The position numbers and the translations under genes are program-made. From assembly GCF_031085375.1 (NCBI RefSeq), contig NZ_JAVCWF010000001.1:2790001-2854000 (forward strand): a stretch of 64,000 nucleotides of DNA, given 5' to 3'. Below are positions 6,517-47,811 of the stretch, piece by piece. Under the pieces are notes generated by a model that saw nothing but the letters and a program-made list of their open reading frames with translations, was not told the DNA's origin and searched no databases. The stretch is from Lactiplantibacillus brownii (GTDB lineage Bacteria; Bacillota; Bacilli; Lactobacillales; Lactobacillaceae). The stretch's first letter is position 1, and each line of letters opens with the position of its first letter.

Positions 6517-6573
6517 TTGATTAGCCACCTTTCAAACCACCTTTAATTTAGTTCCATTCCTAATATTTAATAT

Positions 6574-6602
6574 AGTTTACATCCGTAAACGATAAAATGC
6601 AA
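6574..6602 (-). promoter_or_regulatory. copY promoter with CopY-type operator
   Basis: Minus-strand -35 TTGCAT (6597-6602), 17-bp spacer, -10 TAAACT (6574-6579). The dyad GTTTACATCCGTAAAC with core TACATCCGTA (6578-6587) overlaps the -10. Spacer and -10 closely match the copB promoter. Confidence 0.75.
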
Positions 6603-6721
6603 GCCTAAAACCCGCTAAACCGGTCGTATAACCATCGACTAGTCACGGTCAACTTATTGAACCGAAATGCGATGTATATTACAATTAGTTTAAACTGATT
6701 TACCCACTAAATCACGTATTT

Positions 6722-7393: not shown

Positions 7394-7435
7394 CATCGAT
7401 TACAACTAGTTTATAGGCAGATGGAGGCCAAACTC

Positions 7436-8566: not shown

Positions 8567-8618
8567 GGCAGGCTTCATTTACCGCGACAGGGTATTAGCC
8601 AATCATTCAAAACAAACT

Positions 8619-8666
8619 AAATGGCAGGTCAAAACTTGGAAGCTTCCGAGTCTTGACCTGCCATTT
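8619..8666. terminator. Bidirectional terminator
   Basis: Inverted repeat 8619-8632 with 8653-8666 (core AAATGGCAGGTCAA), extended by weaker pairs. It lies between the converging GGDEF and adhesin genes. Confidence 0.85.
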
Positions 8667-8686
8667 AATTTTAGTCTCGCTTTAAG

Positions 8687-12292: not shown

Positions 12293-15200
12293 CTAATTAT
12301 GACGCCGTTTCCGACCGATGCCAACCAATCCCGTTAAACCGCTCAAGGCTAACAAGACCACACCGAACCTTTGCTTAGATTTAGTAGTCACTTCATTGGT
12401 CTGCGGTAAAGTGATTCCCGCCTTTGAAAGTGAAACTGGCTTGCCATTAATTGCGGTAGTTGCAGCCAACGGTTTCATTACCGTTGAGACGGCTCTCGGC
12501 TTCGTCACTGGATTAGTCACTTTTTGATTAGCCGTCACTGCATTCTGACTAGGCTTTATCACTGGCTTAATCGGTTTCGTTGGAGTAACAGGTTTCACCG
12601 GCTGATCAGGTTTAATGACGGCTCCTGTACCCGAATTGCCAGTATTCTCGTTACCCGTACCCGGCTGAATTGCCGCGACAACCGTAATATTGGCTGTGGC
12701 CGTATAAACGTTTCCCGCGACATCTGTATACCGATACATTACTGGATAGACCCCAGCTTGAGCCATATTGACCGCCCCAGTGACTGCTAGTTGAGCCATT
12801 GTCACTGGCTGACCATTGCTGTCCTTAGCAACCAAGACATTGTCAGCTGGTTGCCAAGTTTCACCTACTGACAATTTGCTATCCTGAATTTGGAGATCTG
12901 CTTGACTGGTAACAACAGTGATGACGGCATTAGTCGTTACTGTGTTTCCCTGCTGATCAGTATAAAGATACTTGATATGATATTGCCCAGCTGTCGTCAA
13001 GTCAACATTGCCAGAAACAACGACAGTCGTGCCGTTTTTTTGTAAATAGCTTGCCAAAATAGATTCATTCTTAGCGATAATCAAATTGACATTATCTTTT
13101 AAAACTATCTCAGAAGCTTGGATTGTCTGACCATTCGCAGTAACGACACTGACTAAGTTATCCTGCGATTCCCAATGAGTGCTTGGGCCTGCAATCACTG
13201 TCTTACCAACGACATTGACCTTTGCTTGTGTCGCAACAACATGCACAGTAATCTCTTTTGACCGTTCGTTGCCACAACTATCCACAAAATAGTACCGAAT
13301 CTGATAATCATTTGGTATGCCGGTATTCACTGTACCAGCAACTTGAACATTAATAACAGCTAACTGATTCCCTTCAGCGTCAGTAGCGCTCACAAAGTTA
13401 TCCGCAGCATGCCACGCTGTCTTCGGTCCAGCAATCAAATCACTATCTTTAACTTGTAAAGTCGCTTGTGTGGCTTTAACCACAATGATGACTGACTTCA
13501 CAATCAAATTACCTGCAACGTCAGTATAACTATAAGTCACTGGATAATTATTCGCCTTTGTTGGATCAACAACGCCATTAACCGCCAACTGATCAAGTGT
13601 CAAAGTGTTACCATCGGCATCTTGAGCCGTTGAAAAGCTATCAGCAGGCGTCCATTTTGCACTAGGACCAGCAACTAATGCCACATTATGGGCATCAATG
13701 ACTGCTTTTGTTTTCTTGACAACGACTGTCGCAGTTTGATAAAACTCATTACCCGCAGCGTCTACATAACTGTAGGTTACTTGATAATAACCAGTCTTAG
13801 TGAGATCGGCGTAGCCATCAACTTTCACATCAGTGACTCTTAATTGATTCCCCTCATCATCTGTAGCGCTTACAAAATCATCGGCGGCAGACCACGTCGT
13901 TTTTGGCCCAAGTATTAAGTTGCTAGATTTAACGTTTAAACTAGCTTTGCTGTTCTTAACCAAGATAGTCGCATGTGCTTCATGGACATTGCCGACACTA
14001 TCTGTGTAGCTGTATGTCACAGTATTCTTTCCGGCTTGGGTTAAGTCAACCGTTCCTACGACCTTAACATCTGTAGCTTTCAATTTATTACCTTCAGCAT
14101 CAGTGGCACTGACAAAATTGTCGGTTGCATCCCAGGTCATTTTTGGTCCAAGTATTAAGTTGCTAGGTTTAACGTATAAACTAGCTTTGCTGTTCTTAAC
14201 CAAGATAGTCGCGTACGCTTCACGAACATTGCCAGCACTATCTGTGTAACTATACGTCACAGTATTACTACCTGCTTTAGTTAGATCAACAATTCCTATG
14301 GTTTTGACGTCAGCAACGTCCAATTTATTTCCTTCAGCATCAGTGGCACTGACAAAATTGTCGGCCACACGCCAGTCTGTCTTGGGTCCTGCAATTAACT
14401 CACTAGATTTAACATTTAAGCTAGCTTGACTTGCCTTAACCACGATGTTCGCATACGCTTCGTGGCTGTTGCCAACACTATCCGTGTAACTGTATGTCAC
14501 AGTATTACTACCTGCTTTAGTTAGATCAACCGTTCCCACGACTTTAACATCCATAACGTTTAAATTATTACCGACAGCGTCAGTCGCACTTACAAAGTTA
14601 TCCGCAGTATCCCAAGTCGTCTTCGGACCAATAATTAAGTTGCTGTTCATAACATGTAGACTAATTTTAGAACGCTTAACAACTACAACAATTTGCTTTT
14701 CAAGTATATTACCGGCACTATCTTCATAACTGTAAATAATTGTATAGTTGCCAGCTTGCGTTGGTTTCGCGGTACCAGTGACCTTGATAGCCTTTACATT
14801 CAAATCATTACCAGCAGCATCAGTCGCACTTGTAAAGTTATCCGCAACATCCCAGGTCGTCTTTGGACCGGCAATTAATTCACTAGATTTAGCCTTTAAA
14901 CTAGCTTGACTATCTTTTACCGTAATCACCGCTGCCTGCTGATAGACATTTCCGGCACTATCTGTGTAGACATACATCACAGTATTGCTACCAACTTGAG
15001 TTAAGTCCACTGTTCCCACGACTTTAACAGCAGTAATCTTTAAATCATTACCTTCAGCATCAGTGGCACTTACGAAGTTATCAGCCACATGCCAGGTCGT
15101 TTTTGGACCAAGGATTAGCTCACTAGGTTTAACCTTTAAACTAGCTTGGCTGGCCTTGACTAAAATGATTGCATCCGCTTCATAGATATTTCCGGCACTA

Positions 15201-18200
15201 TCTGTATAACTGTACGTCACAGTATTACTACCTGCTTTGGTTAGATCAACGGTTCCCATGGTCTTAACATTAATAACTTTTAATTCGTTTCCTTCAGCAT
15301 CCGTGGCGCTTACGAAGTTATCAGCCACATCCCAGGTCGTCTTTGGACCAAGGATTAAGTCGCTGGATTTAGCATTTAGACTAGCTTGGCTGTCTTTTAC
15401 CATTATCACTGCTACTTGCTGATACATATTTCCGGCACTATCTGTATAGCCATACATCACAGTATTACTGCCCGCTTTAGTCGGATCGACCGTTCCCACG
15501 ACCTTAACATCAGTAACCTTTAAACTATTACCGGCAGCGTCAGTCGCACTCACAAAATTATTGGCTTTAGTCCATTCAACATTCGGTCCAGCAATTATCT
15601 CACTAGATTTAACCTTTAAACTAGCTTGACTCGTCTTAACCATGATGATCGCATTCGCTTCACGGACATTGCCAACACTATCTGTATAACTATATGTCAC
15701 AGTATTACTACCTGCTTTAGTTAAGTTCACTGTTCCCATAACCTTAACATCAATAGCAACTAGTTTTCCTCCTTCAGCATCCGTGGCACTTACGAAGTTA
15801 TCAGCCACATCCCAGGTCGTCTTTGGACCAAGTATTAACTCACTGGATTTAACACTTAGACTAGCTTGACTGGCCTTGACTACAATGTTCGCAATTGCTT
15901 CATAGACATTTCCGGCACTATCTGTATAACTGTACGTCACAGTATTACTACCAGTTTTAGTTAAGTTCACTGTTCCAGCAACTTTAACATCAGTAGCAAC
16001 TAGTTTCACTCCTTCTGCGTCAGTAGCGCTTACAAAGTTATCCGCAGCATCCCAAGTCGTTTTTGGACCAAGGATTAATTTACTGGACTTAACACTTAAA
16101 CTAGCTTCACTAGCTTTAACCACGATAATTGCATTTGCTTCATAGATATTTCCGACACTATCTGTATAACTGTACATTACAGTATTACTACCTGCTTTAG
16201 TTAAGTCCACTGTTCCCAAGACTTTAACATCAGTAACAGCTAGTTTCCCTCCTACAGCATCAGTAGCACTTACGAAGTTATCCGCAGCGTCCCAGGTCGT
16301 TTTTGGGCCAATAGTTAAACTGCTATCCTTAACATTTAGACTAGCTTGGCTGGCCTTAACTAAAATGACTGCGTCCGCTTCATAGACATTTCCGGCACTG
16401 TCTGTATAACTGTATGTCACAGTATTACTACCTGCTCCGGTTAGATCAACAGTTCCTGCGACCTTAACATCAGCAACCTTTAAATCGTTACCTTCAGCAT
16501 CCATGGCACTTACAAAGTTATCAGCCACATGCCAGGTCATTTTTGGACCAATAATTAAGTCACTAGATTTAACCTTTAAACTAGCTTGACTGGCCTTAAC
16601 CGCGATAATCGCATTTGCTTCATAGGTATTCCCGGCACTATCTGCATAACTGTATGTTACAGTATTACTACCAATTTTAGTTAAGTTCACTGTTCCAGCG
16701 ACTTTAACATCAGTAGCAGCTAGTTTCCCTCCTACAGCGTCAGTCGCACTTACGAAGTTATCAACCACATGCCAGGTTGTTTTTGGACCAATAATTAAAC
16801 TGCTATCCTTAACATTTAAACTTGCTTGGCTGGCCTTAACTAAAATGACTGCATCCGTTTCATAGACATTTCCGGCACTATCTTCATAACTATACGTTAC
16901 AGTATTACTACCTGCTCCAGTTAGATCAACAGTTCCTGCAACCTTAACATCAGTAACCTTTAAATCGTTGCCTTCAGCGTCAGTGGCACTTACGAAGTTA
17001 TCCGTAACATCCCAGGTCGTTTTTGGACCAATAATTAAGTCACTAGATTTAACCTTTAAACTAGCTTGACTGGCTTTAACCACGATAATCGCATTTGCTT
17101 CATAGGTATTACCGGCACTATCTTCATAACTGTACATTACAGTATTACTACCAACTTTAGTTAGATCAGCCGTTCCCACGACTTTAACATCAGCAACCTT
17201 TAAATCGTTGCCTTCAGCGTCAGTGGCACTCACGAAGTTATCAGCTGCATCCCAGGTCGTTTTTGGACCAATAATTAAGTCACTGGATTTAGCCTTTAAA
17301 CTGGCTTTGCTGGCCTTGACTAAAACGACTGAATCCGCTTCATAGACATTTCCGGCACTATCTTCATAACTGTACGTTACAGTATCACTACCAACTTTAG
17401 TTAGATCAGCCGTTCCCACGACTTTAACACCAGTAACTTTTAAATCGTTACCTTCAGCATCCGTGGCACTTACAAGGTTATCAGCCACATTCCAGGTCGT
17501 TTTTGGGCCAAGGATTAAACTGCTATCCTTAACATTTAGACTAGCCTGGCTGGCCTTAACCACAATAATCGCATTTGCTTCATAGGTATTCCCGGCACTA
17601 TCTGCATAACTGTACGTTACAGTATTACTACCAATTTTAGTTAAATCAACTGTTCCAGCAACTTTAACATCAGCAGCAACTAGTTTCACTCCTTCAGCGT
17701 CAGTGGCACTTACAAAGTTATCCGCAGCATCCCAGGTCGTTTTTGGACCAAGGATTAACTCACTGGATTTAGCATTTAAACTAGCTTGACTGACTTTGAC
17801 TACAATAATCGCATTTGCTTTATAGGTATTCCCGGCACTATCTGTATAACTGTACGTCACAGTATTACTACCAATTTTAGTTAAGTTCACTGTTCCAGCA
17901 ACTTTAACATCAGCAGCAACTAGTTTTTCTCCTTCAGCGTCAGTAGCACTTACAAAGTTATCCGCAGCATCCCAGGTCGTCTTTGGGCCAAGGATCAACT
18001 CACTGGATTTAGCATTTAAACTAGCTTGACTGGCTTTGACTACGATAATCGCATTTGCTTCATAGGTATTACCGGCACTATCTTCATAACTGTACGTTAC
18101 AGTATTACTACCAATTTTAGTTAAGTTCACTGTTCCAGCGACCTTAACATCAGCAACTTTTAATTCGTTTCCTTCAGCGTCAGTGGCACTTACAAGGTTA

Positions 18201-21200
18201 TCAGCTGCATCCCAGGTCGTTTTTGGACCAATAATTAAGTCACTAGATTTAACTTTTAAACTAGCTTGACTGGCCTTAACCAAGATAATCGCATTTGCTT
18301 CATAAGTATTCCCGGCACTATCTGTATAACTGTACGTCACAGTATTACTACCAATTTTAGTTAAGTTCACTGTTCCAGCGACCTTAACATCAGCAACTTT
18401 TAATTCGTTTCCTTCAGCGTCAGTCGCACTTACAAAGTTATCCGCAGCATCCCAGGTCGTTTTTGGGCCAAGGATTAAACTGCTATCCTTAACATTTAGA
18501 CTAGCCTGGCTGGCCCTAACCACAATAATCGCATGTGCTTCATAGGTATTCCCGGCGCTATCTTCATAACTGTACGTTACAGTATTACTACCAATTTTAG
18601 TTAAATCCACCGTTCCAGCAACTTTAACATCAGTAACAGCTAGTTTCACTCCTTCAGCGTCAGTCGTACTTACGAAGTTATCAACAACATCCCATGTCGT
18701 TTTTGGACCAAGGATCAACTCACTGGATTTAACTTTTAAACTAGCTTGACTTGCCTTAACTAAAATGATTGCATCCGCTTCATAGCCATTTCCAGCACTA
18801 TCTGTATAACTGTACGTCACAGTATTACTACCTGCTCTGGTTAGATCAACAGTTCCCGCGACCTTAACATCAGCAACTTTTAATTCGTTTCCTTCAGCAT
18901 CCATGGCACTTACAAAGTTATCCGCAGCATCCCAGGTTGTCTTTGGACCAAGGGTTAACCCACTGGATTTAGCATTTAAACTTGCTTGACTGGCCTTGAC
19001 TACAATGTTTTCCTTTGCTTCATAGACATTTCCGGCACTATCCGTACAGCTATATGTCACAGTATTACTGCCCACTTTAGTCCGATCGACCGTTCCAGCG
19101 ACCTTAACATCAGTAACCTTTAAACTATTACCGGCAGCGTCAGTCGCACTTACAAAGTTATCCGCAGCATCCCAGGTTGTCTTTGGACCAAGGATTAACT
19201 CACTGGATTTGGCATTTAGACTAGCTTGAGTCTTCATTACATGGACGGCAATATTGCTGATATGTTCAACACCTATACCATCCGTATACGTGACCTTAAC
19301 CGTTTGATCACCAACCGTTAGTAAATTCAATTGACTCATATCAGCTACTAACTTGGCATCCTTAAACACCACATTTTTCCCGTTGACGTCTGTGAGATTA
19401 ATAACAGCCGCTTGCAGGTCAAAATTAGCTGTCGGACCAGCCACGATTGTTACCGGTTTGGTTGCAATCATCGCTTGATTTTCAACTACGTGGACCGTCA
19501 CGACATACCGGTGGGCAACGCCAACGCTATCTGTATAAGTTAACGTAATCGGATAATCACCCACGGTCGTTAAATCAGGCTGATCACTAGCTATCAAATT
19601 GAGCCCTGTCAAATCAGTAACTGTTTTGCCAGCTGCATCCGTAGCTGTCACGATTGGACTCAACTTATCCCAGCCCGTTTGCTGGCCAAGAACAATGGTT
19701 TGGTTAGTAACTGTTAAACTTGCCCGACTTTCCAAAACATGCACAATCGCAGTCGCTTGTTGCGTGTAGCCATAAGTGTCTGTAAATGCGAAAACCACAG
19801 TATAATCTCGATCACCAAGTCCTGGCGTATGAACATCAATTCTGTGAATATCCGCATCACCATTCACACTAAAGATTGTGACCCATGGACTGATGTTATC
19901 ATTGAGCAACAAATCAGTTGTGCCATCACCATCAATTAATTTAGTTAAGCTTTCTTTCCGACCCCAACTTTCATTTGGCCCAGCAATAAAGGTCAAATCT
20001 TTCGTTTCAATGCTTGACCGTACTGCTGGCGACCAAACATAGGTTATCGTACCAGTAGGAATGTTGCTATTAAAATTGCTATACAAATTCATCAATTCAT
20101 CGCTTGTATAAGTTGTCTCACTAGTTGTGTTTTTCCAAGTGTGTTCAGGAGTTGGTACGGCTGGTAATTCAGAATCAGAATATATATCTAGTGCTTTCAT
20201 ATAAAACATTAAACGCATATTTTCACTCAAAGTCAGAGACCTTAAATTCGTATCACCAGAAAATAAATCACCACTATATTTGAAATCCCGTAAATCCCAA
20301 CCAGACATATCTAGAGATTGTAATTGAACAGCATCTTCAAATAAGTATGCAACTTGGGTGGCATGCGTCATATTCCAACCAGAGACATTCAATGATTTCA
20401 TCTTTGGTTCAGTCAAAAACATCCCACCAAAAGTAGTATTCTGACCTCCAACGCCAACGTTCCAATTGCTTAAGTCTAGGCTCTGTATATTGGTACTGCT
20501 GAACATATTATTAAAAGTCTCAACTTTGCCAACATTCCAATGTTCAACTGGCAAATTACTACTGTCAATTACCGGATTAGCAGCAAACATCGAATTCATA
20601 TCAGTCACATTGCTAGTGTCCCAATCCTTTATGCCAGAGAGATCAGCAACTTTATCACCACAAAACAGAAAACCTAAATCTGTTGTTTTCGAAACATCCA
20701 AGTTTTCTAACCCATCAATTTCCGTTAAATCATCATCAGCAGGTAATTTAAAAAACATATGCGTAATAGAGTCTCCAGCAATGACATTGGGGGCAATAAT
20801 CACTTTTGTGATACGTGACCGCAGACTAGAATCTTCCCACGGAACACCAACGGTCCCCAAAGTCCCTGTTCCAATAGTTAGAACACCGTCACTGGTCACA
20901 CACCAAGCACTCGTTCCCCAAGTACTACTACCAAGCACTGTCACATCGTTGGACTTTACTAGGTTAGCTCGTGATAGTTTGTTATCTTGAACCGCGGCAG
21001 CACCCAGTGCATCGTTTGTTAATTGTTGCCGGTTGGTCACTGTTGCTTGTTGTATTAATTGACTGTTGCTATCAGTTTCTGTCTTTGCGAGGTTGGCAAC
21101 AGTTTCAACTGCAGCACCCGTTGCGTCTGCAGTATCGTTAGCTTTGGTTAGAGGTACGTTGGAATCTGCAGTAGTTGTAGTGTTACTTTTGGCAGATGTG

Positions 21201-21697
21201 GCATTATTTCCTGAAATCGTGCTGGTTGACTGACTATCAGCACTGGCTTGTTTAGTGTCAGTTTGCTGGACTTCATCGGTTACTGTTCCAGCAGTTGTCG
21301 CCTTAGTATCGTCACTTGATGAACTTTTAGTCGCATCATCAGCGGCATTTTCAACAGTACCTTGTCCAGATTGTGCAGCACTTTTCTCAGTCTGATCGGC
21401 TTGAGTGTCTTTAGTCACACTTGACGAATCTGCTGATGTTTCAGCGTCACTTTTGTCGTCCGTCCTATTTGATTCACTAGTAGCACTGCTGGACTTCAAA
21501 ACAACTTGCGATTCGCCGCTAGAACTTACGTCAGTTTTTTCACTAGACGTTGCGTTCGCCGTTGTTTGACCCGTCGCATCTGCGTGACTAATCAATGTCC
21601 CCACATTCATTGTCGCCACCGCTACGCCAGCAAAAACCCAGAAACGTCCTTTTTTGTACATTTTATAATATAATTTATTATATTGTTCTTTTCTCAT
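12293..21697 (-). CDS. Giant LPxTG adhesin with 23 tandem 80-aa Ig-like repeats
   Basis: Cell-wall-anchored surface protein of about 3,134 aa. In order: KxYKxGKxW-type signal peptide (MYKKGRFWVFAGVA, about 13-45), a Ser/Thr/Asp-rich stalk (about 45-260), BspA-type leucine-rich repeats (about 290-500), three divergent Ig-like units, 23 closely related 80-aa Ig-like repeats (separate entry), four more divergent units, a Pro/Lys-rich wall-spanning segment with VKPVTPTKPIKPV, and LPQTNE with membrane helix and RKRRHN tail. Repeat hallmarks are LGPKTTWDAADNFVSATDAEG and TVTYSYTDSAGN. ATG at 21697 follows GGGGAA. Ig-like arrays of this kind lift a binding tip away from the wall; the LRR region would be the tip. 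It shares its whole architecture with the 987-aa paralogue downstream. Ligand unknown. Confidence 0.9.
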   Translation of the reverse strand: MRKEQYNKLYYKMYKKGRFWVFAGVAVATMNVGTLISHADATGQTTANATSSEKTDVSSSGESQVVLKSSSATSESNRTDDKSDAETSADSSSVTKDTQADQTEKSAAQSGQGTVENAADDATKSSSSDDTKATTAGTVTDEVQQTDTKQASADSQSTSTISGNNATSAKSNTTTTADSNVPLTKANDTADATGAAVETVANLAKTETDSNSQLIQQATVTNRQQLTNDALGAAAVQDNKLSRANLVKSNDVTVLGSSTWGTSAWCVTSDGVLTIGTGTLGTVGVPWEDSSLRSRITKVIIAPNVIAGDSITHMFFKLPADDDLTEIDGLENLDVSKTTDLGFLFCGDKVADLSGIKDWDTSNVTDMNSMFAANPVIDSSNLPVEHWNVGKVETFNNMFSSTNIQSLDLSNWNVGVGGQNTTFGGMFLTEPKMKSLNVSGWNMTHATQVAYLFEDAVQLQSLDMSGWDLRDFKYSGDLFSGDTNLRSLTLSENMRLMFYMKALDIYSDSELPAVPTPEHTWKNTTSETTYTSDELMNLYSNFNSNIPTGTITYVWSPAVRSSIETKDLTFIAGPNESWGRKESLTKLIDGDGTTDLLLNDNISPWVTIFSVNGDADIHRIDVHTPGLGDRDYTVVFAFTDTYGYTQQATAIVHVLESRASLTVTNQTIVLGQQTGWDKLSPIVTATDAAGKTVTDLTGLNLIASDQPDLTTVGDYPITLTYTDSVGVAHRYVVTVHVVENQAMIATKPVTIVAGPTANFDLQAAVINLTDVNGKNVVFKDAKLVADMSQLNLLTVGDQTVKVTYTDGIGVEHISNIAVHVMKTQASLNAKSSELILGPKTTWDAADNFVSATDAAGNSLKVTDVKVAGTVDRTKVGSNTVTYSCTDSAGNVYEAKENIVVKASQASLNAKSSGLTLGPKTTWDAADNFVSAMDAEGNELKVADVKVAGTVDLTRAGSNTVTYSYTDSAGNGYEADAIILVKASQASLKVKSSELILGPKTTWDVVDNFVSTTDAEGVKLAVTDVKVAGTVDLTKIGSNTVTYSYEDSAGNTYEAHAIIVVRASQASLNVKDSSLILGPKTTWDAADNFVSATDAEGNELKVADVKVAGTVNLTKIGSNTVTYSYTDSAGNTYEANAIILVKASQASLKVKSSDLIIGPKTTWDAADNLVSATDAEGNELKVADVKVAGTVNLTKIGSNTVTYSYEDSAGNTYEANAIIVVKASQASLNAKSSELILGPKTTWDAADNFVSATDAEGEKLVAADVKVAGTVNLTKIGSNTVTYSYTDSAGNTYKANAIIVVKVSQASLNAKSSELILGPKTTWDAADNFVSATDAEGVKLVAADVKVAGTVDLTKIGSNTVTYSYADSAGNTYEANAIIVVKASQASLNVKDSSLILGPKTTWNVADNLVSATDAEGNDLKVTGVKVVGTADLTKVGSDTVTYSYEDSAGNVYEADSVVLVKASKASLKAKSSDLIIGPKTTWDAADNFVSATDAEGNDLKVADVKVVGTADLTKVGSNTVMYSYEDSAGNTYEANAIIVVKASQASLKVKSSDLIIGPKTTWDVTDNFVSATDAEGNDLKVTDVKVAGTVDLTGAGSNTVTYSYEDSAGNVYETDAVILVKASQASLNVKDSSLIIGPKTTWHVVDNFVSATDAVGGKLAATDVKVAGTVNLTKIGSNTVTYSYADSAGNTYEANAIIAVKASQASLKVKSSDLIIGPKMTWHVADNFVSAMDAEGNDLKVADVKVAGTVDLTGAGSNTVTYSYTDSAGNVYEADAVILVKASQASLNVKDSSLTIGPKTTWDAADNFVSATDAVGGKLAVTDVKVLGTVDLTKAGSNTVMYSYTDSVGNIYEANAIIVVKASEASLSVKSSKLILGPKTTWDAADNFVSATDAEGVKLVATDVKVAGTVNLTKTGSNTVTYSYTDSAGNVYEAIANIVVKASQASLSVKSSELILGPKTTWDVADNFVSATDAEGGKLVAIDVKVMGTVNLTKAGSNTVTYSYTDSVGNVREANAIIMVKTSQASLKVKSSEIIAGPNVEWTKANNFVSATDAAGNSLKVTDVKVVGTVDPTKAGSNTVMYGYTDSAGNMYQQVAVIMVKDSQASLNAKSSDLILGPKTTWDVADNFVSATDAEGNELKVINVKTMGTVDLTKAGSNTVTYSYTDSAGNIYEADAIILVKASQASLKVKPSELILGPKTTWHVADNFVSATDAEGNDLKITAVKVVGTVDLTQVGSNTVMYVYTDSAGNVYQQAAVITVKDSQASLKAKSSELIAGPKTTWDVADNFTSATDAAGNDLNVKAIKVTGTAKPTQAGNYTIIYSYEDSAGNILEKQIVVVVKRSKISLHVMNSNLIIGPKTTWDTADNFVSATDAVGNNLNVMDVKVVGTVDLTKAGSNTVTYSYTDSVGNSHEAYANIVVKASQASLNVKSSELIAGPKTDWRVADNFVSATDAEGNKLDVADVKTIGIVDLTKAGSNTVTYSYTDSAGNVREAYATILVKNSKASLYVKPSNLILGPKMTWDATDNFVSATDAEGNKLKATDVKVVGTVDLTQAGKNTVTYSYTDSVGNVHEAHATILVKNSKASLNVKSSNLILGPKTTWSAADDFVSATDDEGNQLRVTDVKVDGYADLTKTGYYQVTYSYVDAAGNEFYQTATVVVKKTKAVIDAHNVALVAGPSAKWTPADSFSTAQDADGNTLTLDQLAVNGVVDPTKANNYPVTYSYTDVAGNLIVKSVIIVVKATQATLQVKDSDLIAGPKTAWHAADNFVSATDAEGNQLAVINVQVAGTVNTGIPNDYQIRYYFVDSCGNERSKEITVHVVATQAKVNVVGKTVIAGPSTHWESQDNLVSVVTANGQTIQASEIVLKDNVNLIIAKNESILASYLQKNGTTVVVSGNVDLTTAGQYHIKYLYTDQQGNTVTTNAVITVVTSQADLQIQDSKLSVGETWQPADNVLVAKDSNGQPVTMAQLAVTGAVNMAQAGVYPVMYRYTDVAGNVYTATANITVVAAIQPGTGNENTGNSGTGAVIKPDQPVKPVTPTKPIKPVIKPSQNAVTANQKVTNPVTKPRAVSTVMKPLAATTAINGKPVSLSKAGITLPQTNEVTTKSKQRFGVVLLALSGLTGLVGIGRKRRHN
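13709..19228 (-). repeat. Coding tandem array, 23 units of exactly 240 bp
   Basis: Each unit runs from (Q/K/E)ASL to VVKAS and is 80 codons. Counted from the protein, 23 units follow without insertion or deletion; unit 1 begins at 19228 and unit 23 ends at 13709. Flanking Ig-like units are divergent. Units 10-11 and 12-13 share rare variants (LTGAGSNT in 10 and 12, DAVGGKL in 11 and 13), which indicates duplication of a 480-bp pair. The array is a likely site of length variation by recombination, and of collapse in short-read assemblies. Confidence 0.93.
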
Positions 21698-22273
21698 GAT
21701 TATATTCCCCATTCCAAATCCATTTTGAAAATGTTAAAAATACACAATCACACTAATTTAAGTATAAAATGATTAAGTTCAATTTGATTCATTAATAAAA
21801 TAAACTTACATACTTCTATGCACTGATAGTTTAATGATATTTATCGATAAATAATTGATAAATATATTTATATGTGTCATTAATAGATAAACACTTTGCT
21901 CATTCACAATGTACCACAATCTATCTGTATAATTCAATTATTATTTCTTATATACTAATTATAAATATATTAATGTAGTTGAAGCTAAAAATAAGATTAT
22001 TTAGCTTACCAACTATCTAATGATTCGCACAATTCCAGCTATACCAATTACGTTGTTTATTAAGAAGGTATTTTTTAACCAAAAAGACGACCCTGATATC
22101 AAGATTTAAGAAACAAAAATTGGGTCAATCCATCGCAACATAAATGCTGTCGGCGCACCCATCCTTTTACTAGCATTCACAAAGCATCACTGATATTAAA
22201 CAAGTCTTTTTAAATTACAGAATTAGCCTAATCAATATGACTTCGGCCACAACGAAAAAATCATTGGCCAAAC
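21698..22273 (-). promoter_or_regulatory. Long AT-rich upstream region of the giant adhesin
   Basis: About 575 bases without a gene. The first 300 are extremely AT-rich with runs such as TGATAAATATATTTATATG, typical of promoter and UP-element regions of surface-protein genes. The remainder shows no supported ORF or strong hairpin. Confidence 0.4.
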
Positions 22274-37174: not shown

Positions 37175-37963
37175 CTACTTCAAGATTCGTTGAATTTGCA
37201 TTGCCATCAACATCACTTCTTCATCTGGTAACGGTTTAGTAAATTTCATATTTAAATAAACGGCAACCTTTTGCGCAATTTGATAGGCACGTTGATTTTG
37301 GCTTTGGACTAACGCAACCATGGCCGGGTCACTATCCGTTAGCAAGTTATGTGCAATAGCTCGTTCAACCAAAAACTTAACGTGAACTAAGCAACGTTGA
37401 TAATTCGGACTCGCTTCGTCCAAAGCACCACCAGCTTGATACTTGATAATATTAATTACCCGACCAATCAGTTGGCCAGCTTTTAGCGCATCTTTACGCT
37501 CATCTGTACCATTTTCGGCATTGATTACATGTGCAGCAATATTTGCCGCTTCCTGATCAGAAAATACCGTACCTAGTTGCTGATTCATTATGGTAACGGC
37601 AAAACTTCCAGTAGCAAATTCAGCAGCATAGTAAGTTTTAATTTCCCAGTAAACTCGATTTGTAATCACAATTCCTTTTTCGGCGCGCTCCAGTGCAAAC
37701 TTCAAATGGTCTAATAGTGAAATAAACAACGTATCGCTAAGCTTCAAATGTAAATGTTCCGTTGCATGATTGATGATCTGCTGAGTAATTTCAATCAACT
37801 GTGGAGATGATGAAGCAATGGTCGTCAGTAACTGTTCGAGATTTGCCTTATCAAAATCATTTAATGTGAATCGTAGTCGCGTTGAACAGTGAATTAAAGT
37901 AACAACATTTTTTGTACCACCAACACCAGCAATAATTGCCTGAGCACTTGCTTTAAAATCCAT
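37175..37963 (-). CDS. Chimeric protein: truncated PTS EIIB head fused to BglG-type PRD1-PRD2
   Basis: A 262-aa protein. Residues 1-41 are the start of a beta-glucoside EIIB domain, with GVGGTKNVVTLIHCSTRLRF and candidate phosphocysteine Cys26. From about residue 42 the sequence is instead that of a BglG/LicT antiterminator PRD1 and PRD2: His86 in LLDHLKFALER, His in NIAAHVINAEN, and His in VHVKFLVERAI. The last PRD2 His is replaced (MQIQRIL). The CAT RNA-binding domain and the EIIC/EIIA parts are absent. The ORF is intact, follows AAGGAG, and keeps a RAT/terminator leader. It most likely arose by an in-frame deletion between a bglP-like and a bglG-like gene. It may be a non-functional relic or a dominant regulator that pairs with other PRD proteins. 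Confidence 0.8.
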   Translation of the reverse strand: MDFKASAQAIIAGVGGTKNVVTLIHCSTRLRFTLNDFDKANLEQLLTTIASSSPQLIEITQQIINHATEHLHLKLSDTLFISLLDHLKFALERAEKGIVITNRVYWEIKTYYAAEFATGSFAVTIMNQQLGTVFSDQEAANIAAHVINAENGTDERKDALKAGQLIGRVINIIKYQAGGALDEASPNYQRCLVHVKFLVERAIAHNLLTDSDPAMVALVQSQNQRAYQIAQKVAVYLNMKFTKPLPDEEVMLMAMQIQRILK

Positions 37964-41132: not shown

Positions 41133-41999
41133 CTAGTCTCGATCACCATTAAAATAATCCACAAACTGTTGTTGATAACGATTTAACTTGGCCTGCCTCA
41201 AATAACAGAGATTGATATCCGCCACAACGGTAGGTTCAATGGGTAAAGCCACTAAGTCTGGATCTGCTGGCACCAACTTTTGCATCAATAGTGAGACTCC
41301 GAGCCCTTTTTTGACAAAATTCAAAATGTTTTCAACAATCCGATCCGCATAAATCACATTGGGCGTAAAACCGTTTTTCTGACAAATCTGGACACAAAGT
41401 TCATAGGGCCGTGAATTGACTGGCTGAAAAATGAAGTCCTCCGTTGCTAACTGCTTAATATGCACACTTTTCTGTTGCGCTAGCGGATGCTCCTTCGGTA
41501 AAACTGCCACTAAATGGTCTTCGGTATACGGTAATTGCGTGAAAAGTTCCCCATTTTGAACATCCTTGACGAAGGCAAAATCAATCGTCTTATTTGCTAA
41601 CATCGGCTCCAAGTCTTCCGATGGCCCCGTTTTCACTCTACAACGAATCTGTTGCGAACTCATAAAACCAGTGATCAAATCTAAGATGCCATATTCATTG
41701 ATTGACGGAATACCACCAATGACTAAACCGCTATCTTCGGAATGCCGCCGATTGATTTCATCAGCCGCTTGCTCAGATAATAGTTTGATCTTGGTGGCGT
41801 ACTTTAAATAGATCTCACCATACGGCGTCAACTTAACTTGCCGAGTGGTCCGTTCAAACAACGGTACACCTAACTCACCTTCCAAGCGCTTGATTCTTTT
41901 CGAAAAGGACGACTGTGAAATGTAACAAGCATCCGCCGCTTCCGAAAAGTTCTGCGTTTTGACTAGGGCTAAAAAATTATCTAAATATTTCAAATCCAT
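41133..41999 (-). CDS. LysR-family transcriptional regulator
   Basis: A 288-aa LTTR with the N-terminal winged helix-turn-helix (FSEAADACYISQSSFSKRI, about 17-35) and a C-terminal periplasmic-binding-type effector domain (about 88-285). It is divergent from the ceramidase-fold/PTS/amidohydrolase operon across a 162-base gap, the classic arrangement of an LTTR with its target. The effector is probably a pathway intermediate. Its 3' end overlaps the edge of a structured element. Confidence 0.9.
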   Translation of the reverse strand: MDLKYLDNFLALVKTQNFSEAADACYISQSSFSKRIKRLEGELGVPLFERTTRQVKLTPYGEIYLKYATKIKLLSEQAADEINRRHSEDSGLVIGGIPSINEYGILDLITGFMSSQQIRCRVKTGPSEDLEPMLANKTIDFAFVKDVQNGELFTQLPYTEDHLVAVLPKEHPLAQQKSVHIKQLATEDFIFQPVNSRPYELCVQICQKNGFTPNVIYADRIVENILNFVKKGLGVSLLMQKLVPADPDLVALPIEPTVVADINLCYLRQAKLNRYQQQFVDYFNGDRD

Positions 42000-42059
42000 G
42001 TTCCGACACTCCCATCAATGCGAAATTGGTCTAATTAAGCTTTTTATTCCTTACAGGCA

Positions 42060-42109
42060 TAAGTATAGTCAGACTTAGAATTGCGTGTCAATGGTTAGCG
42101 GACCATAAT
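42060..42109 (+). promoter_or_regulatory. Divergent promoter of the ceramidase-fold operon with LTTR-like dyad
   Basis: TTGCGT (42081-42086), 17-bp spacer, CATAAT (42104-42109). Just upstream of the -35 lies AAGT-N8-ACTT (42061-42076), a weak dyad where LysR-type activators often bind. Transcription from here excludes the ATG at 42108 and supports the TTG start at 42162. Confidence 0.6.
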
Positions 42110-42161
42110 GGGCACTGTAAAGAAAACGGTTACACAGATAATTAGAAAGGAGCACAGGCTT

Positions 42162-43400
42162 TTGAAAACAATTCAAGTGGGATTTGGTAAAGCTGTGATT
42201 GATTTTAAACCAACCGACTTCCCCATCCGAGAATTTGCTAAACAATTGGATACGCTTAATAGTCGAATCATGTTGATTGCTGGGCCTCAGCCATTTGTAC
42301 TCGTTTCATTGGATCTGACCTCATTACCCAATCACCGAGTCATTGAACTTTTCAAAGACAAGGTGGCAGCAACATTGTCAGTGGCACCAGCCAATATTTG
42401 GATCACGGTAACGCACACTTTCGCTGCGCCGCATCTACCAAGCAACCCGCAAACCGCTGCTGCTCATCAAATTTACGATTTCATTCTCGCCAAATTGATG
42501 GCTAGCTTAGTGATGAGTTGCCAAGCCGCGCAACAAGATCTGCAACCAGTTAAGTTGGGGCACGCGGTGGTTGACTGCCCACTAAACGTCAACCGCAATG
42601 TTGCCACTCCGGCTGGCTGGTGGCTCGGTCGAAATTTTGCAGGCTATTCCAATCATCAACTACGTGTCTGGGCCTTTCAAAAAGCGGACGGTCAGCGCCA
42701 CTTGCTTGTTAATTACGACCTACAACCAAGCGTCTTAGACCACCTCACCGATGATGCCGACCAACGCATGATTTCCAGTGATTTAGTGGGTTTTGGCTTA
42801 AAGAAATATGAAACAGATCAGCAAGTGGCCATCTTCTTACCCGGTGCCGCCGGTGATCAGCGACCATTGTTTGTTGGTCATAACGATGAACCCTTTGCCG
42901 TGGCTAAAAGTTTAATGCAACGTCAAGGTGACGTCTTCTATGAAAGTATTCAACAAGCCGTCCAAACAATCACCACTTGGACAACACTCAGCCAAGTTCA
43001 ACAGGTTGCGCAACCAATGACGTTACCGACAAAGGTTCAAAAATTGACGACGTTTGAGTTAACCCCAACCCATCAAGACGACTTCGAGCCCACTGGTGCC
43101 ACGGTTGATCTAAGTGTTGTTGGGATAAAGCTCAACCAGTTATTATTAATTGGCACGCAACCAGAATTGAACAGTCAATTTGGTAACAAGTGCCGCCATG
43201 CTTTAGGTACTGACCAAACGACCATGGTTGCCACACTCGTTAATGGAGCGGCCAAGTATTTACCAGAAGCCCGCGACTTCGATCAGGTCACCTATCAAGC
43301 CATGAACACGCACTTAGGTCGTGGTTCAGATCAGCTCGTTTTGAAGGCTTGCACCCAGTTAGGCCAAAAATTAATTAAGGAGGATGCTGCCAAATGTTAG
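42162..43400 (+). CDS. Neutral-ceramidase-fold protein A, likely altered active site
   Basis: A 412-aa cytoplasmic protein. TTG at 42162 follows AAAGGAG, and the start MKTIQVGFGKAVIDF matches the usual opening of neutral/alkaline ceramidase N-terminal domains (GxGkxDIT). Residues 84-87 read THTF where the family has THTH. The second Zn-His region is replaced (LLVNYDLQP before ISSDLVG). The nucleophile-loop equivalent GAAGDQRP (Gly228-Pro235) is well kept. No signal peptide. It overlaps the next gene by 7 bases. With a paralogue of nearly equal length following, it may form a heteromer. The family hydrolyses N-acyl amide bonds; the substrate here is unknown. Confidence 0.7.
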   Translation: MKTIQVGFGKAVIDFKPTDFPIREFAKQLDTLNSRIMLIAGPQPFVLVSLDLTSLPNHRVIELFKDKVAATLSVAPANIWITVTHTFAAPHLPSNPQTAAAHQIYDFILAKLMASLVMSCQAAQQDLQPVKLGHAVVDCPLNVNRNVATPAGWWLGRNFAGYSNHQLRVWAFQKADGQRHLLVNYDLQPSVLDHLTDDADQRMISSDLVGFGLKKYETDQQVAIFLPGAAGDQRPLFVGHNDEPFAVAKSLMQRQGDVFYESIQQAVQTITTWTTLSQVQQVAQPMTLPTKVQKLTTFELTPTHQDDFEPTGATVDLSVVGIKLNQLLLIGTQPELNSQFGNKCRHALGTDQTTMVATLVNGAAKYLPEARDFDQVTYQAMNTHLGRGSDQLVLKACTQLGQKLIKEDAAKC

Positions 43401-44635
43401 TTGGACATGCTAGAAAAGATATTACCCCAACCGCACCATTTTATTTGTTGGGCTATAAAACACCGTTACGCAATCAACCTGCGAAAGGCGTCCATGATCA
43501 TATTTTTATCAATGCGTTACTTTTCTACGATGAAAAAGGTGATGAATGCTTCTTAGCTACCGGGGATCTGTTGGAATTAGAAGACGTCGTTGCGGCCGAT
43601 ATTCGACAACGCATCAGTCGCCAGTATGGCATCGCGATGGATCACGTCATTATTGGCGTCACCCATGACCACCATTCCGTTCGGGATTATCACCGAACCT
43701 GGGAATTTGGTAAGTTCAGTCAAAGTTACTACGACTTCTTCGTAAACAGTTTCCTAGCTGCCTTCGAAGAATGTCGTGAAACATTAACCGATGTGACCGT
43801 GCAATATGGTCAGCGTGAAATTTTCGGTTACTACAGCAATCGAAATCATCCCAACAAGCCATCAGATAATGCCGTCAGTGTCATCAAGTTTATGCAAAAC
43901 GGTCAAGCCGTGGCTGGCATCGTTAATATGGCCGTCCACTCCACCGTGTTAGGTCCAGATAACCAATATTTAACCGCAGATTTAGCCGGCAATACCTGCG
44001 CGAAACTCGCTGAAGATTGGGGCTTTTTCCCCTTAATGTTAATTGGCTGTGCCGCGGATTCTAGCAATCGCTATGAACGCCAAGGTCGTGACTTCTCCGA
44101 ACTAGAACGGGTCACAACGGGTTTATCACAAGCGATTGCCAAGATTCAAACGCCTAAGACCATCGAGCTGGGCAAAATTCGAACTTTGACTTTAAGCCAT
44201 GAAGTGGTTAACGATAAGAAGCTTTATGATGAACAATTGACTCAGATGATTGCGGATTTGAAGAGTGGCGCTAAAAAGTCGGTTGGGTCACAACCAGTCG
44301 CTGCCATCATTGAAAAATGTGAAGGCCAACTGCAACAACCGCAGTTCCATGACTTACTCAGTCTACAAATTCTGGATCTTGGTAACTTACGGCTTTTCAT
44401 TTTTCCAGGCGAGCTAGCTTCAGCTGGTGCTAAGTTGCTCCGCGCTTCCACTGACAAAACCGTCTTGATTGCTGGGTACTGCGATGGGTTCCACTATTAT
44501 TTCCTACAAGCTCAAGATTACGGCTTATCGTTTGAAACGATTGGTAATCCAGTCCCCGCGGGTACCTTCGAGGAGATCATTGCAAAATTTGTCAGTGGCA
44601 GTCGCTTACTAGATGTGTACGAGAAAAACAACTAA
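43394..44635 (+). CDS. Neutral-ceramidase-fold protein B, metal-site histidines present
   Basis: A 413-aa protein opening with MLVGHARKDITPTAPFYLLG, the family signature. Candidate Zn ligands are His91 and His93 in THDHHS and His182 in MAVHSTVLG, followed by LTADLAG. The nucleophile-loop equivalent reads GCAADSSNR, with serines at the right place. It follows AAGGAGG and overlaps the stop of paralogue A. No signal peptide, so it acts inside the cell, presumably on a compound brought in by the PTS encoded next. Amide or N-acyl hydrolysis is inferred from the fold only. Confidence 0.75.
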   Translation: MLVGHARKDITPTAPFYLLGYKTPLRNQPAKGVHDHIFINALLFYDEKGDECFLATGDLLELEDVVAADIRQRISRQYGIAMDHVIIGVTHDHHSVRDYHRTWEFGKFSQSYYDFFVNSFLAAFEECRETLTDVTVQYGQREIFGYYSNRNHPNKPSDNAVSVIKFMQNGQAVAGIVNMAVHSTVLGPDNQYLTADLAGNTCAKLAEDWGFFPLMLIGCAADSSNRYERQGRDFSELERVTTGLSQAIAKIQTPKTIELGKIRTLTLSHEVVNDKKLYDEQLTQMIADLKSGAKKSVGSQPVAAIIEKCEGQLQQPQFHDLLSLQILDLGNLRLFIFPGELASAGAKLLRASTDKTVLIAGYCDGFHYYFLQAQDYGLSFETIGNPVPAGTFEEIIAKFVSGSRLLDVYEKNN

Positions 44636-44731
44636 CTCATTAAGGAGCCATAATCGGGACTCCATCATAAAAATCGATTATTGTATGTCAATTAAATTTG
44701 ATAAATACAACAATTGAAAGGGTTGTTCAAA

Positions 44732-46681
44732 ATGGATTACAAACCATTAGCTAAAGACATTCTTGAAAATGTCGGTACCAAAAGTAACGTTCAAAGCATT
44801 ACCCACTGTGTCACCCGAGTGCGATTCGTTTTAAAAGACGAGTCCCAGGCCAACGATGCCGCCATCAAAAATTTAGATGGTGTGCTGGATGTGGTGAAGC
44901 AAGGTGGTCAATACCAAGTGGTCATCGGTCCTAGTGTTGGCAGTGTTTATGAGGCTATTTTAGCCGTTGCAAAGTTTCCAGATAGCGTCGTTGCCGGTAA
45001 TGATACCGCAGCGCCAACTGGTGGCGACGATGATGAAAAGGGCTTTTTGAACAAAGCCCTCGGTTTAATCAGTTCAATCTTTATTCCCGTTTTAGGCCTA
45101 TTGTCTGGCGCCGGGATGATCAAAGCGATTCTTTCACTTTGTACCGTCACTGGCCTCTTAACTGACAAGAGCGGTACTTATATTATTCTAAGTGCTTTAG
45201 GTGACACGCTATTCTACTTCTTCCCAGTCGTCATTGGCTGGAGTGCCGCTCGTAAGTTTGGTTTGAAGGAAATTTATGGGGTTACCTTAGGCGCATTCTT
45301 GGTCTATCCAACCTTGGCAACTGCCGCCAGCAGTACCGCCGTTTCAACCATTTTCAAAGGAACCATCTTTGCTTTGAAATATAAATTGACCTTCTTAGGA
45401 ATTCCGGTCGCATTACAGTCATACGCTAGCACGGTCATTCCTATCATTATCATCGTTTGGTTCGCAAGCTACGTTTACAAGTACTGCGACAAAGTCATTC
45501 CAGATGTTTTAAAGATGGTCTTTGTCCCCTTCTTCACACTACTCATTGCCGGAATCGTTAGTTTGATTATCATCGGCCCAATCGCCATGATTTTGCAAAA
45601 CATCTTGAGTGATACGGTTCTCTGGTTAGTTGGTTTGAACAAAGGGATTGCCGGTTTCCTGCTTGGTTTCTTCTGGAGTATTTTGGTTATGTTTGGCTTA
45701 CATTGGGCCGTTATCCCATTCTTTGCCATCGACGTTGCGCACTATGGCTACGATGTGATCAACCCCTTGATTTTTGCTGGTGGTTTAGCCGTTTTGGGCT
45801 CCGCAGTTGGGGTTGCAATTCGTGCTCGCGATGAACGTGTCAAGAGTATGTCTGTCGCTGCTGCCATTTCAGCCTTCTTCGGGATTAATGAACCAGCCCT
45901 TTACGGTGTCTTGATTCCACGTAAAAAGATCCTGTTATCTTCGTTCACTGCTGCTGGGATTGGTGGGGCCATCGCTGGCTTCTCTGGTTCAAAACTTTAC
46001 TCATTCGGTGCGAGTGGGATCTTAGGCCTACCTTGTTTCATTAATCCTAAAGGGATCGATGCTGGTTTCATTGGTTTATGTCTCAGTGGGGTCATTGCCT
46101 TTGCAATTGCTTTAGTTGCCGCCTTAGTCTTAGGCGCTAAAAAGGATGCTGCTGATCCTAAACAAGCTCAAAAAGCCGTTGAACATAGTGACGTTTATGC
46201 CCCAGTTGCTGGCGAAAGTTTCGATTTAACGACCGTCAACGATGATGTTTTCTCAAAATTGATCTTAGGTGATGGGATTGCCATCAAGCCTAGTGAAGGC
46301 AACGTTTACGCACCAGCTGCTGGCGTTATCCGCGTCGCTTATCCGACCGGCCATGCCGTGGGGATGGTCACAGATGATGGTGAAGAACTCTTAATTCATA
46401 TCGGGATTGACACCGTTAATTTACAAGGCAAACACTTTAAAATGCATGTGAACCAGGGGATGCGGGTCAAGAAAGGTGAATTGCTCGTTGAATTTGACGA
46501 ACCAGCCATTACCGCTGCAGGCTACGACACAACTGTCATGATGGTCGTCACCAAGACTGATCGGTTGAAGAGCGTTATGCCGACCCAATTCGGTCCAGTT
46601 ACAAAAGACACTAAAGTTTTAAATGTTGAATTAAAAGAATTGACGACTGATGCGGATACCGCAGCAATCGCAAGTCACTAA
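44732..46681 (+). CDS. PTS beta-glucoside-family EIIBCA permease
   Basis: A 649-aa three-domain permease: EIIB (about 1-85; phosphocysteine in ITHCVTRVRF), EIIC with about ten helices (about 110-475; FFGINEPALYGV), and glucose-type EIIA (about 500-640; His in LLIHIGIDTVNLQG). ATG at 44732 follows GAAAGGG. It has no BglG-type leader; control probably comes from the divergent LysR gene. No phospho-beta-glucosidase is encoded nearby. Instead the partners are ceramidase-fold and amidohydrolase-fold proteins, which suggests an unusual glycoside or amino-sugar derivative as substrate. Confidence 0.92.
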   Translation: MDYKPLAKDILENVGTKSNVQSITHCVTRVRFVLKDESQANDAAIKNLDGVLDVVKQGGQYQVVIGPSVGSVYEAILAVAKFPDSVVAGNDTAAPTGGDDDEKGFLNKALGLISSIFIPVLGLLSGAGMIKAILSLCTVTGLLTDKSGTYIILSALGDTLFYFFPVVIGWSAARKFGLKEIYGVTLGAFLVYPTLATAASSTAVSTIFKGTIFALKYKLTFLGIPVALQSYASTVIPIIIIVWFASYVYKYCDKVIPDVLKMVFVPFFTLLIAGIVSLIIIGPIAMILQNILSDTVLWLVGLNKGIAGFLLGFFWSILVMFGLHWAVIPFFAIDVAHYGYDVINPLIFAGGLAVLGSAVGVAIRARDERVKSMSVAAAISAFFGINEPALYGVLIPRKKILLSSFTAAGIGGAIAGFSGSKLYSFGASGILGLPCFINPKGIDAGFIGLCLSGVIAFAIALVAALVLGAKKDAADPKQAQKAVEHSDVYAPVAGESFDLTTVNDDVFSKLILGDGIAIKPSEGNVYAPAAGVIRVAYPTGHAVGMVTDDGEELLIHIGIDTVNLQGKHFKMHVNQGMRVKKGELLVEFDEPAITAAGYDTTVMMVVTKTDRLKSVMPTQFGPVTKDTKVLNVELKELTTDADTAAIASH

Positions 46682-46707
46682 GTTTTAACGACAAGGAGAG
46701 ATTCAGA

Positions 46708-47730
46708 ATGATTATTGATGCCAATGTCTACTGGTTACCAGCCGAGTTATTCACTGATGAACAGCTACAACAAAAGTTTGTGCAAGCCGTTAATCACGGC
46801 CATGATTCTAAGGCCACCGTTAGTCAATTACCTGATGGCTCGAAAAAATTCGTGATTGAAGAACCCATCGGTCAAAGTAGCCTAGATTATTTTCAAAATG
46901 ACTATACGCTTGACCATCAACTTCATGATATGGACGCTGGCCACGTTGATAAAGCCGTGTTGAAGCTACCCGGTTGTCAAGAATGGCTGGATTTAGACCT
47001 ATGTAAGATCTTTAATCGCGCTGTGGCGAAGCACGTCCAGGCTAGTCATGGTCGGATGGTCGCATTAGCTACGGTTCCCCCTTATGACACGCCGGAAAAT
47101 TTGGCGGAACTGGATTATGCTATTGATGAACTAGGCTTAAACGGCCTTCAGCTCTCAACACATTATCAAGACGGCTATCTCGACAACCCAGCTTACCGGA
47201 GCTTCTTCAAGCACGTTGCGGCAAAAAAGATTCCCGTTTACATTCACCATTCACCCGTTCCAATTGAGTACGAATCGATCAAGGATTATGAAAATTTACG
47301 GCGATCCTATGGTCGTTGTGAGGACCAGATCATTGCGATTAGTCGTGAAGTCTTCAGTGATCTGTTCGAAGACCTACCTGACCTAAAGTTGATTCACTCG
47401 ATGCTGGGTGGCGGTTACTTCACGTACAAGACGATGTTTCTTCCACACGATTCCGGTAACGGCCGCTTTGATACGAATACCAGCAGTGTTCAGGACCGCT
47501 TGGAAAACAACATTTTCTACGAAGTTTCACATGCACAGCCTTGGGGTCCTGACAACCTCGAAATTGCGATGAAAGTTCTCGGCGCGAACAATGTCATTTA
47601 TGGTTCCTCTTACCCAGTTAAAACGGCTTGGATGACGGAAGGTCCGGCGATGATTCAGCATTTAAACGTTGCCGCAACTGACCGTGAACAAGTTTTAGCC
47701 GGTAACGCTGAACGGTTATACAACCTATAA
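46708..47730 (+). CDS. Amidohydrolase-2-fold protein with altered metal motifs
   Basis: A 340-aa TIM-barrel protein of the ACMSD/amidohydrolase-2 type. The N-terminal HxH metal motif is replaced by IIDANVYWLP (Asn and Tyr), and the C-terminal catalytic Asp of GSDYP is Ser in YGSSYP. The barrel His residues in VYIHHSP and LKLIHSMLGGG are kept. It follows AAGGAGAG and closes the LysR-controlled operon before a strong terminator. Members of this fold decarboxylate, hydrate or hydrolyse small acids. Loss of the usual ligands implies changed chemistry or a binding role. Confidence 0.78.
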   Translation: MIIDANVYWLPAELFTDEQLQQKFVQAVNHGHDSKATVSQLPDGSKKFVIEEPIGQSSLDYFQNDYTLDHQLHDMDAGHVDKAVLKLPGCQEWLDLDLCKIFNRAVAKHVQASHGRMVALATVPPYDTPENLAELDYAIDELGLNGLQLSTHYQDGYLDNPAYRSFFKHVAAKKIPVYIHHSPVPIEYESIKDYENLRRSYGRCEDQIIAISREVFSDLFEDLPDLKLIHSMLGGGYFTYKTMFLPHDSGNGRFDTNTSSVQDRLENNIFYEVSHAQPWGPDNLEIAMKVLGANNVIYGSSYPVKTAWMTEGPAMIQHLNVAATDREQVLAGNAERLYNL

Positions 47731-47742
47731 GACTTAACACCT

Positions 47743-47792
47743 AAAAACAGGTCCAAAGATCCTCAACCTTGAGAATCTTCGAACCTGTTTTT
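47743..47792. terminator. Bidirectional terminator
   Basis: Arms AAAAACAGGT...AAAGAT and ATCTTC...ACCTGTTTTT with minor mismatches. It lies between the amidohydrolase operon and the converging ATPase gene. Confidence 0.85.
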
Positions 47793-47811
47793 GATTTTCA
47801 TTCAGAATTCT

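Follow-up and report, generated by a model that had tools for sequence, protein, structure and literature searches.

Which substrate is handled by an operon in which a beta-glucoside (bgl)-type phosphotransferase system (PTS) permease travels with two ceramidase-fold proteins and an amidohydrolase barrel? The question is raised by a locus in a 64,000-nucleotide stretch (the window) of the Lactiplantibacillus brownii genome (3,347,921 bases). A first-pass annotation of this DNA described a LysR gene facing a four-gene set, and all five genes were confirmed at their coordinates, with families assigned by Pfam and NCBIfam and, for the first ceramidase-fold homologue (cer1), by profile comparison. 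It also proposed that a phosphorylated, N-acylated or amidated compound is opened by both ceramidase-fold proteins and then processed by the barrel. The gene set, its co-inheritance and the variant nature of the barrel withstood analysis; the opening of the substrate by both proteins did not. The reading that we favor is that the locus is an accessory cassette for a sugar conjugate, in which Cer1 and Cer2 would form a heteromer with Cer2 as the catalytic subunit and the barrel would act on the released part. With the mechanism and substrate that we infer, this is a serious possibility that falls somewhat short of probable.

The first-pass annotation had suggested searching for conserved co-occurrence of the genes across Lactobacillales. 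The search located the five-gene set (LysR, cer1, cer2, PTS and barrel) at 13 loci, with shuffled gene order, in families labeled f1, f3 and f4 and in Enterococcaceae (Enterococcus raffinosus); the lack of co-occurrence that would have spoken against the earlier description was thus not seen. The 13 loci correspond to ten genomes matched by a barrel profile, plus genomes G003 and G015 and E. raffinosus. At E<=1e-40 the barrel profile matched 2/398 genomes sampled from the class, 1/398 from the phylum, 3/105 from the family of genome G338 and 6/251 from the window's own family; these samples overlap and hold only ten distinct matched genomes, so the set is rare. In all ten, cer1 and cer2 accompany the barrel gene. 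A cer2 search among 150 relatives matched seven genomes and a mixed ceramidase profile matched 12 of 395 across the whole order, both counts including the window's own genome, and a back-translation scan of genome contigs with cer2 found only two relatives, in Lactiplantibacillus mudanjiangensis and L. pingfangensis. Plasmid records were fetched for 4 of 35 with a cer2 relative and 2 of 225 with a barrel relative. The barrel gene closes the set in the four Lactiplantibacillus loci, L044 and L065 and opens it in L016, L020, L046, L063, L064, L066 and L067; genome G011 has the set divided between two contig ends. A LysR orthologue adjoins the set in 12/13 loci (as two broken open reading frames (ORFs) in L064) and is unlinked in genome G149. 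Chance neighborhood was ruled out by the 13 loci with shuffled gene order. Locus L064 (genome G1207, 5263-11123) holds a decaying copy of the cassette, in which cer2 and an EIIC-like gene are open but LysR, barrel and cer1 are disrupted; its broken genes were excluded from the residue counts given below, and its intact cer2 was included.

The permease combines EIIB, EIIC and EIIA_1 domains (PF00367, PF02378 and PF00358) and scores above the cut-off of the NCBIfam model for beta-glucoside IIABC components. This form, EIIBCA, is found in nine loci (the L014 copy is split by a transposase pair). Loci L066 and L067 have EIIA plus EIIBC, the L067 EIIBC being present as two ORFs, and L046 has a Lac-family EIIC, as does L064, judged by 92% similarity to L046. 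None of the five genes of the window set encodes a phospho-beta-glucosidase, in line with the earlier description; GH1 genes lie near the set in L063 and L065. The operon contains no BglG-type antiterminator, its place being taken by LysR, and such a gene was seen near the set in L016 only. A canonical bgl operon was ruled out by the lack of both a phospho-glycosidase and an antiterminator within the operon.

Regulatory sequences are also shared. An LTTR-like (LysR-type transcriptional regulator) dyad, TTATTC-N7-GAATAA, was found with up to three mismatches in all 13 upstream regions, which supports a co-inherited operon with a shared operator, and the block containing it is conserved across the four Lactiplantibacillus loci. 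A cre-like site for CcpA, scored against a general consensus, was present with up to two mismatches in 11/13 upstream regions (shuffled sequences: mean 1.3, maximum 6), the position of the best match varying between loci. The longer, exact form of the dyad was scanned in seven genomes: G015, G003, G149 and G1195 carry it at the locus and nowhere else, G011 has it once, away from the locus, and it was not found in G000 or G1254, whose sites depart from it at one base or in the flanking sequence. Genome G149 has an exact dyad and no LysR gene in the 19 kb of sequence covered around the set; its best LysR match, on another contig, is 51% identical to the E. raffinosus protein, the next best being 26%. 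As judged from gene content and upstream regions, the five genes are co-inherited, with a common LTTR-like dyad and, in most loci, a putative cre site.

In the window, a putative operon promoter was assigned because the intergenic block is conserved between loci. The dyad center lies ~63 bases upstream of the start point expected from this promoter, close to the usual position of LTTR sites near -65. The cer1 gene most likely starts at TTG 42162 rather than ATG 42108, since the former codon runs into the conserved -10 box, whose place cannot be shared with a start, and is replaced downstream by a TTG for EIIBCA, an in-frame ATG at 44732 appears the likelier start. The cer1 and cer2 genes overlap by 7 bases, and gaps of 78 and 26 bases follow between cer2 and EIIBCA and between EIIBCA and the barrel gene. 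The terminator hairpin was matched in stability by 0/200 shuffled sequences. Consensus scans did no better than chance: they listed 13 promoter-like sites where 10.8 were expected and 5 terminator-like sites where 7.0 were, with neither the proposed promoter nor the hairpin among them.

Table 1 Features of the locus, in window positions
Feature	Position	Strand	Remarks
LysR-type regulator gene	41133..41999	-	PF00126 78.1 bits, PF03466 111.4 bits; divergent from the operon
LTTR-like dyad TTATTC-N7-GAATAA, putative LysR site	42044..42062	+	1 mismatch at this locus
Proposed promoter TTGCGT-17-CATAAT	42081..42109	+	By-eye reading of conserved intergenic block
Putative cre-like site (CcpA)	42120..42134	+	1 mismatch to the consensus
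cer1, ceramidase-fold homologue	42162..43400	+	Lacks two active-site histidines; start moved from 42108
cer2, ceramidase-fold protein	43394..44635	+	PF04734 55 bits, cut-off 32.1; four zinc-ligand positions retained
PTS EIIBCA, beta-glucoside (bgl) subfamily	44714..46681	+	TIGR01995 655.9 bits, cut-off 614.7
Amidohydro_2 barrel, remodeled active site (N6, Y8, H180, M232, S301)	46708..47730	+	PF04909 81.3 bits, cut-off 26.4
Terminator hairpin, in the gap separating the operon from the convergent P-type ATPase gene	47742..47793	+	-21.4 kcal/mol, z -5.2

The first-pass annotation recognized two ceramidase-fold proteins, and profile comparison agrees. Cer2 passes the PF04734 cut-off, and its profile matched the human (4wgk, E 8.3e-15) and Pseudomonas (2zws, E 1e-11) neutral ceramidases. 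The window Cer1 had no match in Pfam or NCBIfam, nor, as a single sequence, in the PDB; hhalign aligned it with Cer2 (probability 99.5, E 1.6e-22), and its profile matched human 4wgk (E 1.2e-7). Among its relatives, the L016 protein passes the PF04734 cut-off (33.9 bits) and the L044 protein fails it (25.3 bits). Cer2 residues H91, H182, E340 and Y369 align with 2zws chain positions 97, 204, 411 and 448, which we take to be the zinc ligands. H91, H93, H182 and E340 are conserved in 13/13 Cer2 proteins and 12/12 distant homologues, and Y369 is invariant across 12 aligned sequences (the L013 Cer2 is short by ~33 N-terminal residues; L051, where the cer gene is interrupted by a stop, was excluded from the residue table and the tree). 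Cer1 retains the equivalents of H91, E340 and Y369. At the H93 position it has F in 12/12 loci, and at the zinc-ligand position H182 it has Q in 11 and P in one of 12. Because these two active-site histidines are missing throughout, catalysis by both proteins is not supported by the alignments. A secreted lipid ceramidase was ruled out by the PTS-operon context and by the lack of any signal peptide obvious by eye on the Cer proteins.

Cer1 could instead be active with a different chemistry, the pair performing two separate steps. The retained equivalents of H91, E340 and Y369 would fit this, as would the presence of cer1 in 13/13 loci (broken in L064). The uniform loss of the two histidines speaks against it, as does the faster divergence of Cer1 (pairs of sequences from 11 shared loci are on average 36.1% identical, vs 58.3% for Cer2), and we consider an active Cer1 very unlikely. 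In the heteromer reading, Cer1 would be a non-catalytic partner, serving folding or substrate binding, in one enzyme with Cer2. The PTS would take up a conjugate, probably beta-glucoside-like, and phosphorylate its sugar part, and the Cer2 zinc site would cleave the amide (or ester) bond of the phosphorylated conjugate. Cleavage would free hexose-6-phosphate or glucosamine-6-phosphate for central metabolism, and a dedicated sugar enzyme would therefore be unneeded. LysR may sense the substrate or a product and activate the operon, and CcpA may repress it while preferred sugars are available. The barrel would transform the other half of the conjugate.

The barrel offers a clue to that other half. 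Its best PDB match is LigW2 (E 5.9e-16), and among solved structures it is closest to 5-carboxyvanillate decarboxylases and ACMSD. In the LigW2 alignment (residue numbering offset of 22, counted by hand), LigW His188 corresponds to H180, Asp314 is replaced by S301 and His241 by M232, in agreement with the variant amidohydrolase noted earlier. The LigW literature gives Asp314 as a metal ligand and proton donor (PMC8187880) and lists His241 in the active-site pocket (PMC6031855). Barrel residues N6, H180, M232 and S301 are fixed in 12/12 loci and in a Thioclava relative; Y8 is fixed in 12/12 loci and is His in Thioclava. N6 and Y8 stand where the strand-1 Glu/His motif is expected, outside the LigW2 alignment, which starts at residue 69-95. 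Canonical decarboxylase chemistry is therefore unlikely, given the Asp314 and His241 replacements, although the site is conserved between loci. A LigW-type decarboxylase identity was ruled out by the loss of the Asp.

The kinship of the barrel nevertheless bears on a phenolic route, in which the PTS would import an aroyl-glucose or aryl glucoside, Cer2 would cut the ester or amide and the barrel would modify the freed aromatic acid. Neighboring genes point the same way at two places: the Thioclava barrel relative (~40% identity) is clustered with genes for a flavin adenine dinucleotide (FAD) monooxygenase and a fumarylacetoacetate-hydrolase family protein, with an aromatic ring-cleavage dioxygenase gene ~5 kb off, and the L044 set is flanked by a second LysR gene and by UbiD-like, UbiX-like and BD-FAE esterase genes. 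However, a neighborhood of the L044 type occurs in 1/13 loci, the L044 UbiD- and UbiX-like proteins do not reach the NCBIfam cut-offs for the hydroxyarylic-acid decarboxylases VdcC and VdcB (383.5 vs 650 and 263.6 vs 290 bits), and the decarboxylase Asp is Ser in the barrel. We regard this route as rather doubtful.

Hydrolysis of N-acyl bonds is the known reaction of the ceramidase fold, which favors an amino-sugar route: a glucosamine derivative whose N-acyl group is unusual would enter through the PTS, Cer2 would deacylate it to glucosamine-6-phosphate and the barrel would take the acyl acid. In Nitratireductor, distant cer genes have glucosamine-isomerase-like, SIS and Amidohydro_1 neighbors, and in L047 the neighbors are SIS and Amidohydro_1 genes. 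The distant loci with neighbors of this type are L022 and L047, and SIS proteins also lie beside L019. At L016 a YdjC-like gene is located 157 bases upstream of the barrel gene. Set against this, the transporter belongs to the beta-glucoside and not the N-acetylglucosamine subfamily, the Cer relatives with amino-sugar neighbors are distant ones (~22-26% identity), and the L016 YdjC protein does not reach the chitin-disaccharide deacetylase cut-off (127.2 vs 227 bits). At the 12 remaining loci no gene of this kind was recognized next to the set. The amino-sugar route therefore seems improbable. The neighborhoods give no consistent support to the N-acyl group that the first-pass annotation proposed for the substrate: amino-sugar genes lie near some distant cer relatives and the YdjC-like gene near the L016 set, while aromatic-acid genes lie beside the L044 set and the Thioclava barrel relative. 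Plant glycosides with amide or lactam parts may be further candidate substrates.

Several observations weigh against the heteromer reading. The aromatic and amino-sugar hints conflict. In the tree, which has many long branches, Cer1 and Cer2 form separate, fully supported clades, and Cer1 branches with a distant Agrobacterium sequence instead of with Cer2; a recent cer1/cer2 duplication is therefore not supported by the tree. The structure models were unusable (predicted local distance difference test (pLDDT) 30.7 for Cer1 from two sequences and 53.4 for the barrel from three), and fold statements for Cer1, Cer2 and the barrel rest on sequence profiles. The dyad consensus was derived from the same loci in which the dyad was counted, and the comparison with 500 shuffles (mean 3.0, maximum 8) consequently flatters it. 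A reversed control pattern had about as many genome-wide matches as the dyad, so that the scan reveals the rarity of this dyad form and not its enrichment.

Ceramidase-fold genes are also associated with transport in more distant relatives. Ten distant cer loci were read in Lactobacillales (L017, L018, L019, L045 and L047-L052), and PTS genes lie near five of them: L017, L018, L045, L047 and L049 (L018 and L047 by similarity or eye). In L017, L018 and L045 the cer gene is beside EIIC and RpiR-like regulator genes; Pfam identifies the EIIC gene in L017 and L045 and the RpiR gene in L045, and the others were judged by similarity. Where these two genes are the only apparent partners, the product of the Cer reaction probably feeds straight into central metabolism. 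Locus L049 (6489-12494) has a row of genes for PTS EIIBC, a distant ceramidase-fold protein, an M81/MlrC-like metallopeptidase and a 474-amino-acid ORF without a Pfam match, looking like another undescribed combination. In two genomes (L048, 8293-11267, and L050, 8213-11169) the ceramidase-fold gene is flanked by a Gfo/Idh/MocA-type oxidoreductase gene and by one that is SIS-like by eye, with no PTS gene recognized beside it.

The genomic setting was compared using insertion-site flanks from 7/21 Lactiplantibacillus genomes. In G009, G020 and G003 the orthologue of the gene at 39836 abuts the P-type ATPase gene with zero insert; in G001, G007 and G015 the ATPase gene is absent at this position. 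G003 and G015 carry the set elsewhere in the genome, and L. pingfangensis has it at the same position as the window. On this comparison, the locus behaves as an accessory cassette. The insertion site in G014 (L077, 2905-7718) holds other genes, by eye those of another PTS cassette, a hint that sugar cassettes are swapped at this site. Also in the window, a 262-amino-acid ORF (37175-37963, minus strand) has the beginning of an EIIB joined to PRD domains from a BglG-type antiterminator; it looks like the deletion scar of a bgl-type operon, because its L. pingfangensis counterpart (L015) consists of an EII gene, a 483-amino-acid ORF and an antiterminator. Further off, 12293-21712 (minus strand) encodes a 3139-amino-acid protein that is probably exposed at the surface; within its gene, at 13821-19229, a 240-base unit is repeated ~22.5 times.

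Full-text searches of open-licence papers found no published description or named pathway for the gene set, consistent with the earlier statement that none was known. The PTS catabolic operon is known as a type, and the enzyme combination is new. More tentatively, the set could represent a Lactobacillales pathway in which a heteromeric ceramidase-fold enzyme, with one active and one pseudo-enzyme subunit, hydrolyses a PTS-phosphorylated glycoconjugate and a barrel lacking the canonical metal site converts the acid thus freed by a novel reaction. If true, part of PF04734, a family named for ceramide hydrolysis, acts intracellularly on PTS-imported sugar conjugates. The active/degenerate Cer pair and the rebuilt barrel each pose an enzymological question that can be tested, and since the cassette is small, its operator predictable and its hosts growable and manipulable lactobacilli, induction screening offers a way to look for the substrate.

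The locus shares features with four known systems and departs from each. Like the neutral ceramidases, Cer2 scores above the Pfam cut-off and retains four zinc-ligand positions; unlike them, it has 413 residues where the solved chains (4wgk and 2zws) have 688 and 646 and match it over their N-terminal parts only, it has no obvious signal peptide, and it belongs to a PTS operon with a partner lacking two histidines. The bgl PTS operons have in common with it the EIIBCA subfamily and the cre-like site, and differ in having BglG where LysR stands here and in their phospho-beta-glucosidase. With decarboxylases of the LigW/ACMSD type the barrel shares the Amidohydro_2 fold family and the retained His188, as H180, whereas S301 and M232 set it apart. 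The nag/chb amino-sugar operons have NagA-, NagB- or ChbG-/YdjC-like genes, none of which is in the five-gene set, the L016 YdjC-like gene lying nearby; what they would share with it is the proposed logic of PTS import followed by amide hydrolysis.

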